Of a stretch of 64,000 bases of DNA, positions 37,458-40,977 are shown in pieces. The stretch is taken from assembly GCF_000739375.1 (NCBI RefSeq), contig NZ_CP006704.1:3224001-3288000 (forward strand), written 5' to 3'. The notes below the pieces were generated by a model. The model ran no database searches. It was not told where the DNA came from and saw only the letters and a list, made by a program, of their open reading frames with translations. This stretch comes from Comamonas testosteroni TK102 (GTDB lineage: Bacteria; Pseudomonadota; Gammaproteobacteria; Burkholderiales; Burkholderiaceae_C). The translations under genes were made by a program, and so were the position numbers. Each line of letters begins with the position of its first letter. The stretch's first letter is position 1.

Positions 37458-39503
37458 ATGATCAGTCTCAAGAACATCACGCTGCGCCGCGGCACCAAAG
37501 TCCTGCTCGACCAAGTCAGCACCACCATCAACCCGGGAGAGTCCGTCGGCCTTGTCGGCCGCAACGGTGCCGGCAAGTCCAGCCTGTTTGCCCTGCTCAA
37601 TGGCAGCATCAGCGAAGACGGCGGTGATTTTTTCATCCCTCCTCAGTGGCGCATGGCACAGGTGGCCCAGCACATGCCGGAAACCGACGAATCTGCCACC
37701 CGGTTCGTACTGGATGGCGACACGCGCCTGGCCGAGCTGAACGCCCAGCTGGCTGCAGCCGAAGCTTGCGGCGATGGCATGGAGATCGCCCAGGCCTATG
37801 TGGATCTGGCCGATGCCGGTGCACATGATGCAGAATCGCGCGCACAAGCCTTGATTCTGGGTCTGGGCTTCAAGGTTTCCGAACTGGATCACCCCGTCAA
37901 CAGCTTCTCGGGCGGCTGGCGCATGCGTCTGCAGCTGGCCCGCGCACTGATGGCTCCCAGCGATCTGCTGCTGCTGGATGAACCCACCAACCACTTGGAT
38001 CTGGATGCCCTGGTCTGGCTGGAGGCCTGGCTCAAGCGCTATAGCGGCACGATGATCGTCATCAGCCATGACCGCGAATTCCTGGACGCCATCACCAACG
38101 TCACACTGCAGATTCAGGGCGGGCAGATCAACCGCTACGGCGGCAACTACTCGCGCTTTGAAGAGCTGCGCGCCCAGCAGCTGGAGCTGCAAGCGGCCAG
38201 CTTTGCCAAGCAGCAGGAAAAAATGGCTCACCTGCAGAAGTTCATTGACCGCTTCAAGGCCAAGGCCAGCAAGGCCAAGCAGGCACAAAGCCGGGTCAAG
38301 CAGCTGGAGCGCATGGAAAAGATCGGGCCGGTCCTGGCCGAAGCCGAGTTCACCTTCGAATTCAAGGAACCTGCCAACCTGCCCAACCCGATGCTGGCGA
38401 TTTCCGACGCCAGCTTCGGCTATGAAGACGAGGACGGCAGGCAGACCACCATCTTGCGGGGCGTCAACCGCTCCGTACTGGCAGGCCAGCGCATCGGCAT
38501 TCTGGGAGCCAACGGCCAGGGTAAATCGACCCTGGTCAAGACCATCGCCCGCGAGATGAAGGCGCTGGCCGGTACCGTCACCGAAGGCAAAGGCCTCAAT
38601 ATCGGCTACTTTGCCCAGCAGGAGCTGGACGTGCTGCGCCCCAGCGAGAACCCGCTGGAGCACATGATCCGCCTGGCCAGGGAACTCGGCGCTGCCGCAC
38701 CTGCCGCCAGCCGTGAACAGGACTTGCGCAACTGGCTGGGCACTTTCAACTTCAGCGGCGACATGGTCAAACAGTCCGTGGGCAGCATGAGCGGCGGCGA
38801 AAAAGCCCGGCTGGTGCTGGCCATGATCGTCTGGCAACGCCCCAATCTGCTGCTGCTGGACGAACCTACCAACCACCTGGACCTGGCCACCCGCGAAGCG
38901 CTGGCCATGGCGCTCAACGACTTCGACGGCACCGTGATGCTGGTCTCCCATGACCGCCACCTGCTGCGCGCCGTATGTGAAGACTTCTGGATGGTGGGCC
39001 GCGGCGTTGTCGGCCCCTTCGATGGCGACCTGGACGACTACCAGCGCTATCTTCTGGAAGAGTCCAAGCGCCTGCGTGAGGAAGCACGCAATGCCGAACA
39101 GCAGGCCGCAAGCACGCCAGCGGTGCAGGCTCCGGAAGAGTTCAAACCAAATACGCCTGAAGCCCTCGCTACAAAAGTGCCAGACGCTCCGAAAACAGAA
39201 GCAATCACTGACGCAGCTGACCCTAAGGAAGCCCGACGCCTGGCTGCTGCAGCTCGCCAGCAACTGGCCGAAAAGACCAAGCCTTTCAAGAAAGAGCTGG
39301 AACAGATCGACAAGACGCTGCCCAAGCTCAATGCAGAGCGCGGCACTCTCGAAGCCAAGCTGGCCACGCCTGGCCTGTCGGGCGGCGATATCGTTGAAGC
39401 CGGCAAGCAGCTGAGCGCCGTCAACGCCGAAATCGATCAATTGGAGGAGCGCTGGCTGGAGCTTTCGGAGCAGATCGAAGCCCTGTCCACCGAAACCTGC
39501 TGA
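37458..39503 (+). CDS. ABC-F family ATPase (YheS/Uup-like)
   Basis: 681 residues, two ABC domains and no transmembrane part: Walker A GRNGAGKSS (about 36) and GANGQGKST (about 350), signatures FSGGWRMR and MSGGEKAR, Walker B LLLDEPTNHLDL twice. The interdomain linker (FAKQQEKMAHLQKFIDRF...) and the C-terminal coiled coil (about 595-680, TLPKLNAERGTLEAKL) fit YheS. ABC-F proteins act at the ribosomal E site to relieve stalled translation. A Pro/Ala/Thr-rich stretch at 565-600 precedes the coiled coil. Confidence 0.92.
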   Translation: MISLKNITLRRGTKVLLDQVSTTINPGESVGLVGRNGAGKSSLFALLNGSISEDGGDFFIPPQWRMAQVAQHMPETDESATRFVLDGDTRLAELNAQLAAAEACGDGMEIAQAYVDLADAGAHDAESRAQALILGLGFKVSELDHPVNSFSGGWRMRLQLARALMAPSDLLLLDEPTNHLDLDALVWLEAWLKRYSGTMIVISHDREFLDAITNVTLQIQGGQINRYGGNYSRFEELRAQQLELQAASFAKQQEKMAHLQKFIDRFKAKASKAKQAQSRVKQLERMEKIGPVLAEAEFTFEFKEPANLPNPMLAISDASFGYEDEDGRQTTILRGVNRSVLAGQRIGILGANGQGKSTLVKTIAREMKALAGTVTEGKGLNIGYFAQQELDVLRPSENPLEHMIRLARELGAAAPAASREQDLRNWLGTFNFSGDMVKQSVGSMSGGEKARLVLAMIVWQRPNLLLLDEPTNHLDLATREALAMALNDFDGTVMLVSHDRHLLRAVCEDFWMVGRGVVGPFDGDLDDYQRYLLEESKRLREEARNAEQQAASTPAVQAPEEFKPNTPEALATKVPDAPKTEAITDAADPKEARRLAAAARQQLAEKTKPFKKELEQIDKTLPKLNAERGTLEAKLATPGLSGGDIVEAGKQLSAVNAEIDQLEERWLELSEQIEALSTETC

Positions 39504-39515
39504 GACCGTAAAGCC

Positions 39516-39550
39516 GCCCTGCCCTTGCCCAGCATTGGCAGGGCGCTATT
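39516..39550 (+). terminator. Terminator-like hairpin after the ABC-F gene
   Basis: GCCCTGCC (39516-39523) and GGCAGGGC (39537-39544), followed by the AT-rich GCTATTCATTTT. Confidence 0.65.
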
Positions 39551-39631
39551 CATTTTGAATAGATTCAGTAGCCGCTTACAACATCAGCAAACGTGAGTTG
39601 CATTTTCTTGCGCGGTTGATTCAGCTTCTTG

Positions 39632-39681
39632 TCAACCTGCAGTTCAGGCCAGGCGTTGAACACGCAAAGGAGTGAACTGCA
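39632..39681 (+). repeat. 5' leader of mini-gene 1, tandem repeat unit 1
   Basis: TCAAC, 13 bases, CAGGCGTTGAACA, then AAGGAG before the ATG. The same series recurs 217 bases downstream (39849-39899) with equal spacing, showing that leader and gene were duplicated together. Confidence 0.65.
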
Positions 39682-39804
39682 ATGACCACCACTGTTACCG
39701 ACACCGCCAAAGCCCAGCCTGTAAAGGCAGCAGCAGCTATGTCTCTGATGGCCTGGCCTTGGGACGAGCGCGATCGCAAGCGTACCCCTGCATTCGCAGC
39801 CTGA
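39682..39804 (+). CDS. Mini-gene 1: 40-residue peptide with WPWDERDRKR motif
   Basis: A 40-codon frame with an excellent ribosome site (AAGGAG, nine bases before ATG). The Thr/Ala-rich first half (MTTTVTDTAKAQPVKAAAA) is followed by MSLMAWPWDERDRKR and the tail TPAFAA. The motif is shared with the second mini-gene at the DNA level (GACGAGCGCGATCGCAAG versus GACGAACGCGATCGCAAG). There is no signal peptide and no modifying enzyme nearby. It could be a small regulatory protein, a leader peptide or a dual-function RNA. Not a family I recognise. Confidence 0.65.
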   Translation: MTTTVTDTAKAQPVKAAAAMSLMAWPWDERDRKRTPAFAA

Positions 39805-39848
39805 TGATCACTGGATAAAAGAACAGGCAAAAAATTTCCAAAAAGCTG

Positions 39849-39899
39849 TCAACGAGCTGAATCTGTCAGACGTTAAACAGACATACAGGAGAGATTCCC
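39849..39899 (+). repeat. 5' leader of mini-gene 2, tandem repeat unit 2
   Basis: TCAAC, 13 bases, CAGACGTTAAACA, then CAGGAG before the ATG; copy of 39632-39681 offset by 217 bases. Confidence 0.65.
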
Positions 39900-39959
39900 A
39901 TGCAAACCACGAACATCATGTCCATCTGGCCCGAAGACGAACGCGATCGCAAGCGCTAA
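39900..39959 (+). CDS. Mini-gene 2: 19-residue peptide MQTTNIMSIWPEDERDRKR
   Basis: Nineteen codons with a strong AGGAG eight bases before the ATG, ending exactly after the shared motif WPEDERDRKR. The last ten residues differ from mini-gene 1 only at the third motif position (W/E). Translation is supported by the ribosome site and by the conserved motif, whose codons differ at a synonymous site (GAG/GAA). A terminator at 40105 closes the transcript about 145 bases later, leaving a 3' untranslated part. Confidence 0.6.
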   Translation: MQTTNIMSIWPEDERDRKR

Positions 39960-40104
39960 GCGCTCGCCGCGCAGCACTGTGCAGACCAAAGCGCAGTGTG
40001 TTGCAGCCAGGTGCCCGGGCAGTCGGCACTGATAGGCCAAAGAACCCACAAGCCTTGCTGCCCCGCGCTTGACCTGCCGCTCTCTGAAGTGGCTCCCCTT
40101 CCTC

Positions 40105-40138
40105 AAAACCCGCATGAATGATTTCTGCGGGTTTTGTC
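40105..40138 (+). terminator. Terminator of the mini-gene transcript
   Basis: AAAACCCGCA and TGCGGGTTTT, 11-base loop, short T-run. Confidence 0.8.
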
Positions 40139-40193
40139 ATTTGCTGAACCGAATTTCCCGGCCGCAGGCGAGCAATGCAAAGCGAGGGGCATG

Positions 40194-40220
40194 AAAAAAA
40201 GGAGCCTGAGCTCCTTTTTT
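40194..40220. terminator. Terminator of phaB (works in both directions)
   Basis: Seven A, GGAGCCTGAGCTCC, six T; stem GGAGC/GCTCC. It lies 20 bases past the phaB stop on the minus strand. Confidence 0.8.
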
Positions 40221-40239
40221 GCTGAATGCCTGAACAGGC

Positions 40240-40977
40240 TTAATGCATGTGCAGACCGCCGTTGACCGCAAAGTCAGCGCCGGTGGAATAGCTGCCCTCT
40301 TCCGAAGCCAGCCAGGAGATGATGGAGGCAATCTCTGCAGGCTCGCCCAGACGCTTGACGGGCACGCCCGCCACGATCTTTTCGAGTACATCGGGACGAA
40401 TGGCCTTGACCATATCGGTGCCGATATAGCCCGGGCTGACCGTATTCACGGTCACTCCCTTGGCGGCCATCTCTTGCGCCAGCGCCATGGTGAAGCCATG
40501 CATGCCCGCCTTGGCGGCCGAGTAGTTGGTCTGGCCGGCCTGGCCCTTGGCACCGTTGACCGAGCTGATGTTGATGATGCGGCCCCAGCCCTTTTCCACC
40601 ATGTCTGCCACCACCTGCTTGGTGACGTTGAACATGGAGTTGAGGTTGGTTTCGATGACCGACTTCCAGTCATCCGGCGTCATCTTGACGAACATTCGGT
40701 CGCGAGTGATACCCGCGTTGTTCACCAGCACATCGATGTTGCCGTGCTCTGCCTTGGTCTGGTTGAAGGCTTCGACGGTGGATTCCCAATCCCCCACATT
40801 GCCAACCGAGGCATAAAACGTGTAACCCAATTGCGCCTGCTCGTCCAGCCACTTGCGGTAGTCGCGCGATGGTCCGCAACCCGCGATCACCTTGAAGCCA
40901 TCCTTATGCAAACGCTGGCAGATTGCGGTACCGATACCGCCCATGCCCCCCGTGACGTACGCTACTTTCTGACCCAT
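40240..40977 (-). CDS. phaB: Acetoacetyl-CoA reductase
   Basis: 245 residues, short-chain dehydrogenase. NADPH-dependent reduction of acetoacetyl-CoA to (R)-3-hydroxybutyryl-CoA for PHB. YVTGGMGGIGTAIC (cofactor loop), NNAG, NISSVNGAKGQAGQTNYSAA with the Ser/Tyr/Lys triad, and C-terminal GLHMH are typical PhaB. It is third in the phaC-phaA-phaB order on the minus strand, but a 259-base gap with an inverted repeat suggests it has its own promoter. Confidence 0.95.
   Translation of the reverse strand: MGQKVAYVTGGMGGIGTAICQRLHKDGFKVIAGCGPSRDYRKWLDEQAQLGYTFYASVGNVGDWESTVEAFNQTKAEHGNIDVLVNNAGITRDRMFVKMTPDDWKSVIETNLNSMFNVTKQVVADMVEKGWGRIINISSVNGAKGQAGQTNYSAAKAGMHGFTMALAQEMAAKGVTVNTVSPGYIGTDMVKAIRPDVLEKIVAGVPVKRLGEPAEIASIISWLASEEGSYSTGADFAVNGGLHMH

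Follow-up and report, generated by a model that had tools for sequence, protein, structure and literature searches.

Two small open reading frames (ORFs) of Comamonas testosteroni TK102, which lie side by side in a 64,000-nucleotide stretch of the chromosome (the window), belong to a recurrent cassette made of a promoter, a Shine-Dalgarno sequence, a peptide of 18–44 amino acids and, usually, a terminator-like hairpin, arranged singly or in tandems of two or three. We think it fairly probable that both ORFs are independent small-protein genes under the control of an ECF sigma factor, with a conserved core that would act as a linear motif.

Two mini-ORFs with duplicated promoters

The source genome is a single contig of 6.06 Mb. 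Within the window, a preliminary description had pointed to two mini-ORFs of 40 and 19 codons with a common motif, placed behind good Shine-Dalgarno sites and upstream of a convergent phaB gene. All of these features are present in the sequence (Table 1), although ORF2 falls below the 20-amino-acid limit of the ORF listing and was read directly. The two frames share the core W-P-x-D-E-R-D-R-K-R, and the 20 bases encoding DERDRKR differ by a single synonymous change (GAG/GAA), again as first described. A degenerate DNA pattern for the core, TGGCCNNNNGAYGARCGNGAYCGNAARCG, has exactly two matches in the genome, both at these ORFs, and none when read backwards, in a search that is blind to variants of the motif.

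Table 1. Features of the mini-gene locus, in positions of the window.
Feature	Position	Strand	Sequence or description	Basis
ABC-F type ATPase gene, upstream neighbor	37458..39503	+	outside the cassette; named by eye	conserved neighbor
Promoter P1, ECF type	39630..39658	+	-35 TGTCAAC (39630-39636), spacer 17, -10 CGTTG (39654-39658)	
Shine-Dalgarno of ORF1	39666..39672	+	AAAGGAG	sequence; position conserved in alignment A1
ORF1, 40 aa	39682..39804	+	core WPWDERDRKR; MTTTVTDTAKAQPVKAAAAMSLMAWPWDERDRKRTPAFAA	ORF calling, genome pattern search, relatives
Promoter P2, ECF type	39847..39874	+	TGTCAAC-N17-CGTT, then A	
Shine-Dalgarno of ORF2	39886..39892	+	CAGGAGA	sequence
ORF2, 19 aa	39900..39959	+	core WPEDERDRKR; MQTTNIMSIWPEDERDRKR	direct reading, pattern search, relatives
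3' untranslated stretch	39960..40103	+	similar within the genus	congeneric alignment
Terminator-like hairpin	40104..40138	+	AAAACCCGCA...TGCGGGTTTT with T-rich tail	folding; found in all 6 aligned congeneric loci
phaB, convergent neighbor	40240..40977	-	outside the cassette; named in the earlier description and by eye	conserved neighbor

The leaders of the two ORFs had also been described as duplicated with an offset of 217 nucleotides. Indeed, TGTCAAC-N17-CGTT occurs twice in the window at precisely this offset, compared with a mean of 0.09 matches in 100 shuffles, none of which contained two. A published account gives AAC in the -35 element and CGT in the -10 element as hallmarks of ECF promoters (PMC8103513). 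P1, P2 and the consensus described below all have an AAC-containing -35, and their -10 elements contain CGT at a spacing of 16–17 nucleotides. The duplicated leader is better read, from its sequence, as an ECF-type promoter present twice. The sites lie 52–53 nucleotides before the two ATGs, and transcription of ORF1 is predicted to start at about 39664–39666.

To define the element, 180 distinct copies of the cassette were gathered on condition that each had a site with at most two mismatches. Their consensus is cTGTCAAC-N17-CGTTG, with 11 bases matched exactly in 146 copies, with one mismatch in 29 and with two in 5. The spacer is 17 nucleotides in 172 copies and 16 in the other 8. When no site was required, the at least 145 copies listed in a scan of contigs divided into 108 with the exact promoter, 26 with one mismatch, six with two and five with no site. 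Control windows from the same loci (n = 9998) gave no exact promoter and ten within one mismatch. The 35 nucleotides upstream have an AT content of 0.56, compared with 0.41 further up, and the distance from the -35 to the start codon is 52–57 nucleotides in 144 of the 180 copies, other values coming partly from starts chosen by script.

Because CAACG and CGTTG form an inverted repeat in many copies, the same sequence might instead be an operator or an RNA hairpin. The base that follows AAC is G in 102 copies and something else in 78, whereas CGTT begins with C in all 180. The hairpin pair is therefore not maintained, pairing with this invariant C being impossible in those 78 copies. Moreover, no right half among the listed sites reads CGTTGACA. 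We rejected this reading on base pairing and regard it as highly improbable.

Selection on the peptide core

We searched for the promoter alone in 41 genomes: TK102 itself, 24 of the same genus, which had not been chosen for the peptide, and 16 of other families. Leaving aside TK102, the same-genus loci contained 23 exact sites, 16 of which are followed after 45–70 nucleotides by an ATG that opens an ORF of 15–45 amino acids. All 16 short ORFs encode the core. Of the remaining seven sites, four precede genes for exported proteins (L050, L053, L059 and L060) and the other three are apparent chance matches (L041, L052 and L058). None of the ten sites in other families preceded the core.

Among the 15 distinct copies from this blind search, pN/pS is 0.11 over the ten core codons and 0.84 over the six codons before them, which indicates purifying selection on the motif and answers a check of the dN/dS type proposed in the preliminary description. 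A sample of 28 copies, 12 of which came from genomes selected for being carriers and all of which had passed a loose motif filter, gave 0.147 for the core and 0.93 for the preceding codons, with 2.26 and 1.21 in shifted frames and 0 in an antisense control. Because all 16 blind ORFs carry the core and its pN/pS is so far below that of its flank, the core peptide is, by comparative sequence evidence, the selected product. These results are harder to reconcile with a leader peptide, an RNA hairpin or a small RNA with an incidental ORF.

The small-protein reading put forward earlier is supported by a core that persists across genera with synonymous changes. The preliminary description knew no family with this motif, and none was matched in the libraries searched. 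Pfam contains no match for ORF1 at E values up to 10, DUF1127 included, and neither NCBIfam nor PHROGs matches the peptides. Against a protein database, ORF1 returned seven unnamed predicted proteins, the window's own first. Literature searches found no paper on the DERDRKR motif and, judged from the search listing, nothing related on TGTCAAC with sigma factors; among the matches listed for small proteins and sRNAs, Comamonas testosteroni is not mentioned. Across the 180 copies the peptides range from 18 to 44 amino acids, with 24 in 81 copies. By eye they contain no signal or membrane segment, which would place them in the cytosol. Earlier, RDRKR had been suggested to bind RNA or nucleotides. 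RNA binding is weakly supported: in WPEDERDRKR acidic and basic residues are balanced, four of each, which speaks against a simple arginine patch for RNA binding.

The transcript itself was also considered. As a dual-function sRNA, an RNA reaching to about 40135 would act mainly by base pairing and the ORF would be secondary. Positions 39884–40140 do fold better than shuffled sequences (z-score -2.77), and the 3' stretch is in part conserved among congeneric loci. However, the 3' stretches of other genera are unrelated by eye apart from the terminator-like hairpin, only two of 26 predicted pairs in the genus alignment change on both sides, and changes in the core codons are synonymous. Beyond the genus, the features seen to be conserved are the promoter, the Shine-Dalgarno sequence, the peptide core and a terminator-like hairpin. 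We judge the sRNA reading unlikely. Rfam, at gathering thresholds, has no match in the window.

Similarly, the proposal that the two ORFs form their own unit between two terminators stands in part. The downstream hairpin, at about 40104–40135, folds and is present in six of six aligned congeneric loci, while the upstream terminator is an inverted repeat near 39518–39548 recognized by eye only. A simple consensus scan of 39000–40600 listed neither a terminator nor a sigma-70 promoter. The idea of one unit also needs qualifying: P1 and P2 serve one ORF each, and no terminator is visible by eye between the two ORFs.

Distribution and neighborhood of the cassette

To follow the cassette beyond TK102, we sampled 250 genomes of the window's family and 300 of its order. 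The exact DNA pattern for DERDRKR matches in 36 of the 250, at least two of these matches (L031 and L036) being due to chance. A model built from 41 copies (R1, alignment A1) matches 68 of the 250 at E 0.01, and the 39 that match at E 1e-5 or better are taken as carriers. The six weakest of the 39, read singly, all encode the core or a variant behind the same promoter. The other 29 matches are probably chance; three of them were read (L031, L036 and L151) and contain no mini-gene. A motif search across Comamonadaceae, as proposed at the outset, thus found the cassette in 39 of 250 sampled family genomes. In the order sample, eight genomes match at E 0.001. Five of these, all in the window's family, do so at E 7.1e-17 or better, and the three weak matches (L149, L150 and L151, the last also in the family) have no mini-genes on reading.

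At four loci (L127, L129, L130 and L132), a divergent sequence, WPSDDRDRRR or WKKDDRDRRR, lies behind the same promoter. Such members suggest a wider family with the core W..DDRDRRR, which the patterns used here would mostly miss.

The contig scan, which overlaps the sampled genomes (e.g., G093 and L198) and is not independent of them, found at least 119 stretches with at least 145 copies. Among those listed, 96 are single, 20 double and three triple. Genera among the listed matches are Comamonas, Delftia, Acidovorax, Paracidovorax, Paenacidovorax, Simplicispira, Giesbergeria, Curvibacter, Xylophilus, Diaphorobacter, Corticibacter, Rhodoferax, Vandammella, Extensimonas, Lampropedia and Oryzisolibacter, all of which belong to Comamonadaceae. 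The list also includes metagenome-assembled genomes placed only in Burkholderiales, Burkholderiaceae, Comamonadaceae or Proteobacteria/Pseudomonadota. One contig titled Pantoea sp. 18069 (L223, NZ_CACSJA010000005.1) has a mini-gene together with phaB and ABC-F proteins 82% and 76% identical to those of the window; its organism name is probably wrong. Three tandem mini-genes occur at L049 (G547:C32), L163 and L201. All three copies at L049 have promoters of their own, one of which includes a mismatch, and each also shows, by eye, a terminator-like hairpin.

The neighborhood is conserved but not fixed. A phaB gene lies within 1 kb of 106 of the 145 listed copies, and an ABC-F gene within 1.2 kb of 90, always upstream on the same strand (90/90); both are near 72 copies. 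Elsewhere, copies lie near ahpC-like, aldehyde-dehydrogenase-like and ligD-like genes (L133, L139 and L145), where gene names, as in all cases given without a profile search, come from reading the translations. These three have the same promoter, with one mismatch in L145. Since copies with the same promoter occur in other neighborhoods, the cassette, and not its surroundings, is the unit.

This arrangement also bears on the suggestion that the ORFs are leader peptides, which would sense translation and control a downstream gene. Short ORFs with strong Shine-Dalgarno sites are what such a role would use. Yet phaB is convergent in all of the 106 copies, among 145, with a phaB gene at this distance, so that an attenuator's same-strand gene directly downstream is missing there. 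In addition, in many genera a terminator-like hairpin can be seen by eye behind the copies, and tandem copies each have their own promoter. We judge the suggestion extremely improbable.

A candidate sigma factor and a second gene with the same promoter

Which sigma factor might recognize the promoter? The TK102 genome has 28 matches to PF08281, response regulators included. By comparison, the carrier G386, with a genome of 2.3 Mb that is 99% complete, has seven, which by reading are one ECF sigma factor (L303), a FliA-like sigma factor and five response regulators. NCBIfam assigns L303 to PRK09047 (NF006550, 260 bits vs 173), and its gene adjoins a DUF3619 gene. Because L303 is the only ECF sigma factor detected in this 2.3-Mb carrier, the factor driving the mini-genes is, by elimination, probably of the PRK09047 type, with the caveat that PF08281 could miss an unusual sigma factor. 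In TK102, a PRK09047-type ECF sigma gene (L070, C1:2229148-2229675) is followed by DUF3619-like and DUF3106 genes; the DUF3106 profile was tested on the TK102 protein and that of DUF3619 on the G386 protein. The sigma factor of this locus and L303 are 73% identical. No paper was found in a literature search on PRK09047, DUF3106 and DUF3619, and one on ECF sigma factors with Comamonas gave a single match, concerning sulfite; a narrower one on ECF classification gave none.

At E 1e-25, relatives of the candidate occur in 211 of 250 family genomes and 38 of 39 carriers (Fisher p 0.007, a statistic that ignores relatedness). This co-occurrence is weak evidence, as the sigma factor is far commoner than the peptide. 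Carrier G315 (94% complete) has no PRK09047 match at this threshold, and carrier G302 has a weak one (3.8e-45) in two pieces. Autoregulation is common in ECF sigma factors, though not universal. At seven loci, no site with three or fewer mismatches precedes the candidate gene, three-mismatch matches lying at or after the conserved N-terminus, so autoregulation lends no backing to the pairing. Nor do the sigma genes of TK102 show autoregulation by motif; near-matches, as read, are inside genes or far from their starts.

These results leave some room for the same peptide gene to be served by another sigma factor, such as RpoE or an ECF factor that PF08281 does not detect. RpoE-like sigma factors are encoded by TK102 and by G413 and G513, the other two carriers examined, and both the lack of motif-based autoregulation of the PRK09047 candidate and its absence from the matches of G315 favor this alternative. 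On the other hand, G386, whose mini-gene has the exact promoter, has no RpoE-like protein among its seven PF08281 matches. We consider another sigma factor a serious but rather unlikely alternative. One specific candidate, an RskA-type ECF sigma factor beside an anti-sigma-like gene (L083), was rejected: the 250 genomes include 62 with it, the 39 carriers only 14. L083 (C1:3614644) and a second ECF sigma factor, L082 (C1:1700464), are 92% identical as proteins and have similar anti-sigma-like genes and upstream blocks, probably reflecting a recent duplication.

A second conserved gene lies behind the same promoter, with a spacer of 16 or 17 nucleotides. It encodes a small protein rich in alanine, proline and lysine with a signal-like start, MKKLLA. 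In TK102 it is divergent from an icd-like gene (L038, C1:3598302), and it accounts for the four exported-protein genes met in the blind search. Among 12 carriers representing as many other genera, five have it with the promoter (L285, L286, L290, L291 and L293). The acid-shock protein Asr has a similar signal-like N-terminus and a similar composition, and it is the only NCBIfam match listed for the Lys-rich protein of G302 (E 0.096); at 13.5 bits against a cut-off of 50, that protein is no member by the Asr model. The TK102 protein matches only the Spy and BRANT models, far below cut-off.

Proposed mechanism and comparison with known systems

The pieces can be assembled into a working model of the ECF-driven small-protein gene. 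Release of the sigma factor would let RNA polymerase start just downstream of TGTCAAC-N17-CGTTG, close enough to the Shine-Dalgarno sequence to leave a leader of about 16–20 nucleotides, and the product would be a cytosolic peptide of 18–44 amino acids. Function would reside in a core of ten residues, WPx-D-[ED]-RDR-[KR]-R, leaving the N-terminal tail free to vary. We favor a stress-induced, protein-binding role for this core: as a short linear motif with a Trp-Pro anchor and alternating charges, it may bind a conserved cytosolic protein during envelope-type stress. Tandem copies would raise the dose, and their separate promoters suggest a demand for it. Most likely the sigma factor is the PRK09047 protein, encoded with DUF3619, which we propose as an anti-sigma factor with one membrane segment, and DUF3106, a proposed outer sensor. 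Many genomes encode the sigma factor but yielded no peptide gene, so that the peptide resembles an accessory output rather than a component of the sigma switch.

A bolder version is possible, and we offer it tentatively. PRK09047, its DUF3619 anti-sigma factor and its DUF3106 sensor may govern an undescribed ECF regulon, one main output of which in Comamonadaceae would be dose-amplified WPxDERDRKR peptides of 18–44 amino acids. These would reprogram a conserved cytosolic machine under envelope stress, accompanied by the Lys-rich protein as an exported shield.

Gene finders often skip genes as small as these. For a peptide gene that recurs across many genera of one family there is now a defined promoter, together with a core motif and a candidate for the sigma factor, so that an uncharacterized sigma factor, two partners of "unknown function" and the peptide become directly testable. 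The promoter signature also provides a route to other small genes of this kind.

Several described systems resemble parts of the cassette. CcaF1 of Rhodobacter, a DUF1127 protein, is a stress-induced small Arg-rich protein encoded beside tandem sRNAs. Like the predicted mini-gene peptides it is short and charged, and it shares with them a small transcript, predicted for the mini-genes, near tandem repeats. However, the motifs differ, and ORF1 has no Pfam match, DUF1127 included, at E values up to 10. Among promoters, those of ECF41 sigma factors, TGTCACA-N16-CGTC (PMC3426412), share a TGTC-type -35, a CGT-type -10 and a spacer of 16–17 nucleotides with the mini-genes. The boxes themselves are different: the mini-genes have TGTCAAC and CGTT(G) in place of TGTCACA and CGTC. 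In TK102 one sigma factor is ECF41-like by reading (L074), and it has no counterpart among the seven PF08281 matches of G386. EcfG promoters have a wider -35 of GGAAC, whereas that of the mini-genes is TGTCAAC, and NCBIfam places the candidate sigma factor in PRK09047. What the two promoters have in common is the pair of boxes described for canonical EcfG promoters of Alphaproteobacteria, AAC in the -35 and CGTT in the -10 (PMC8103513).
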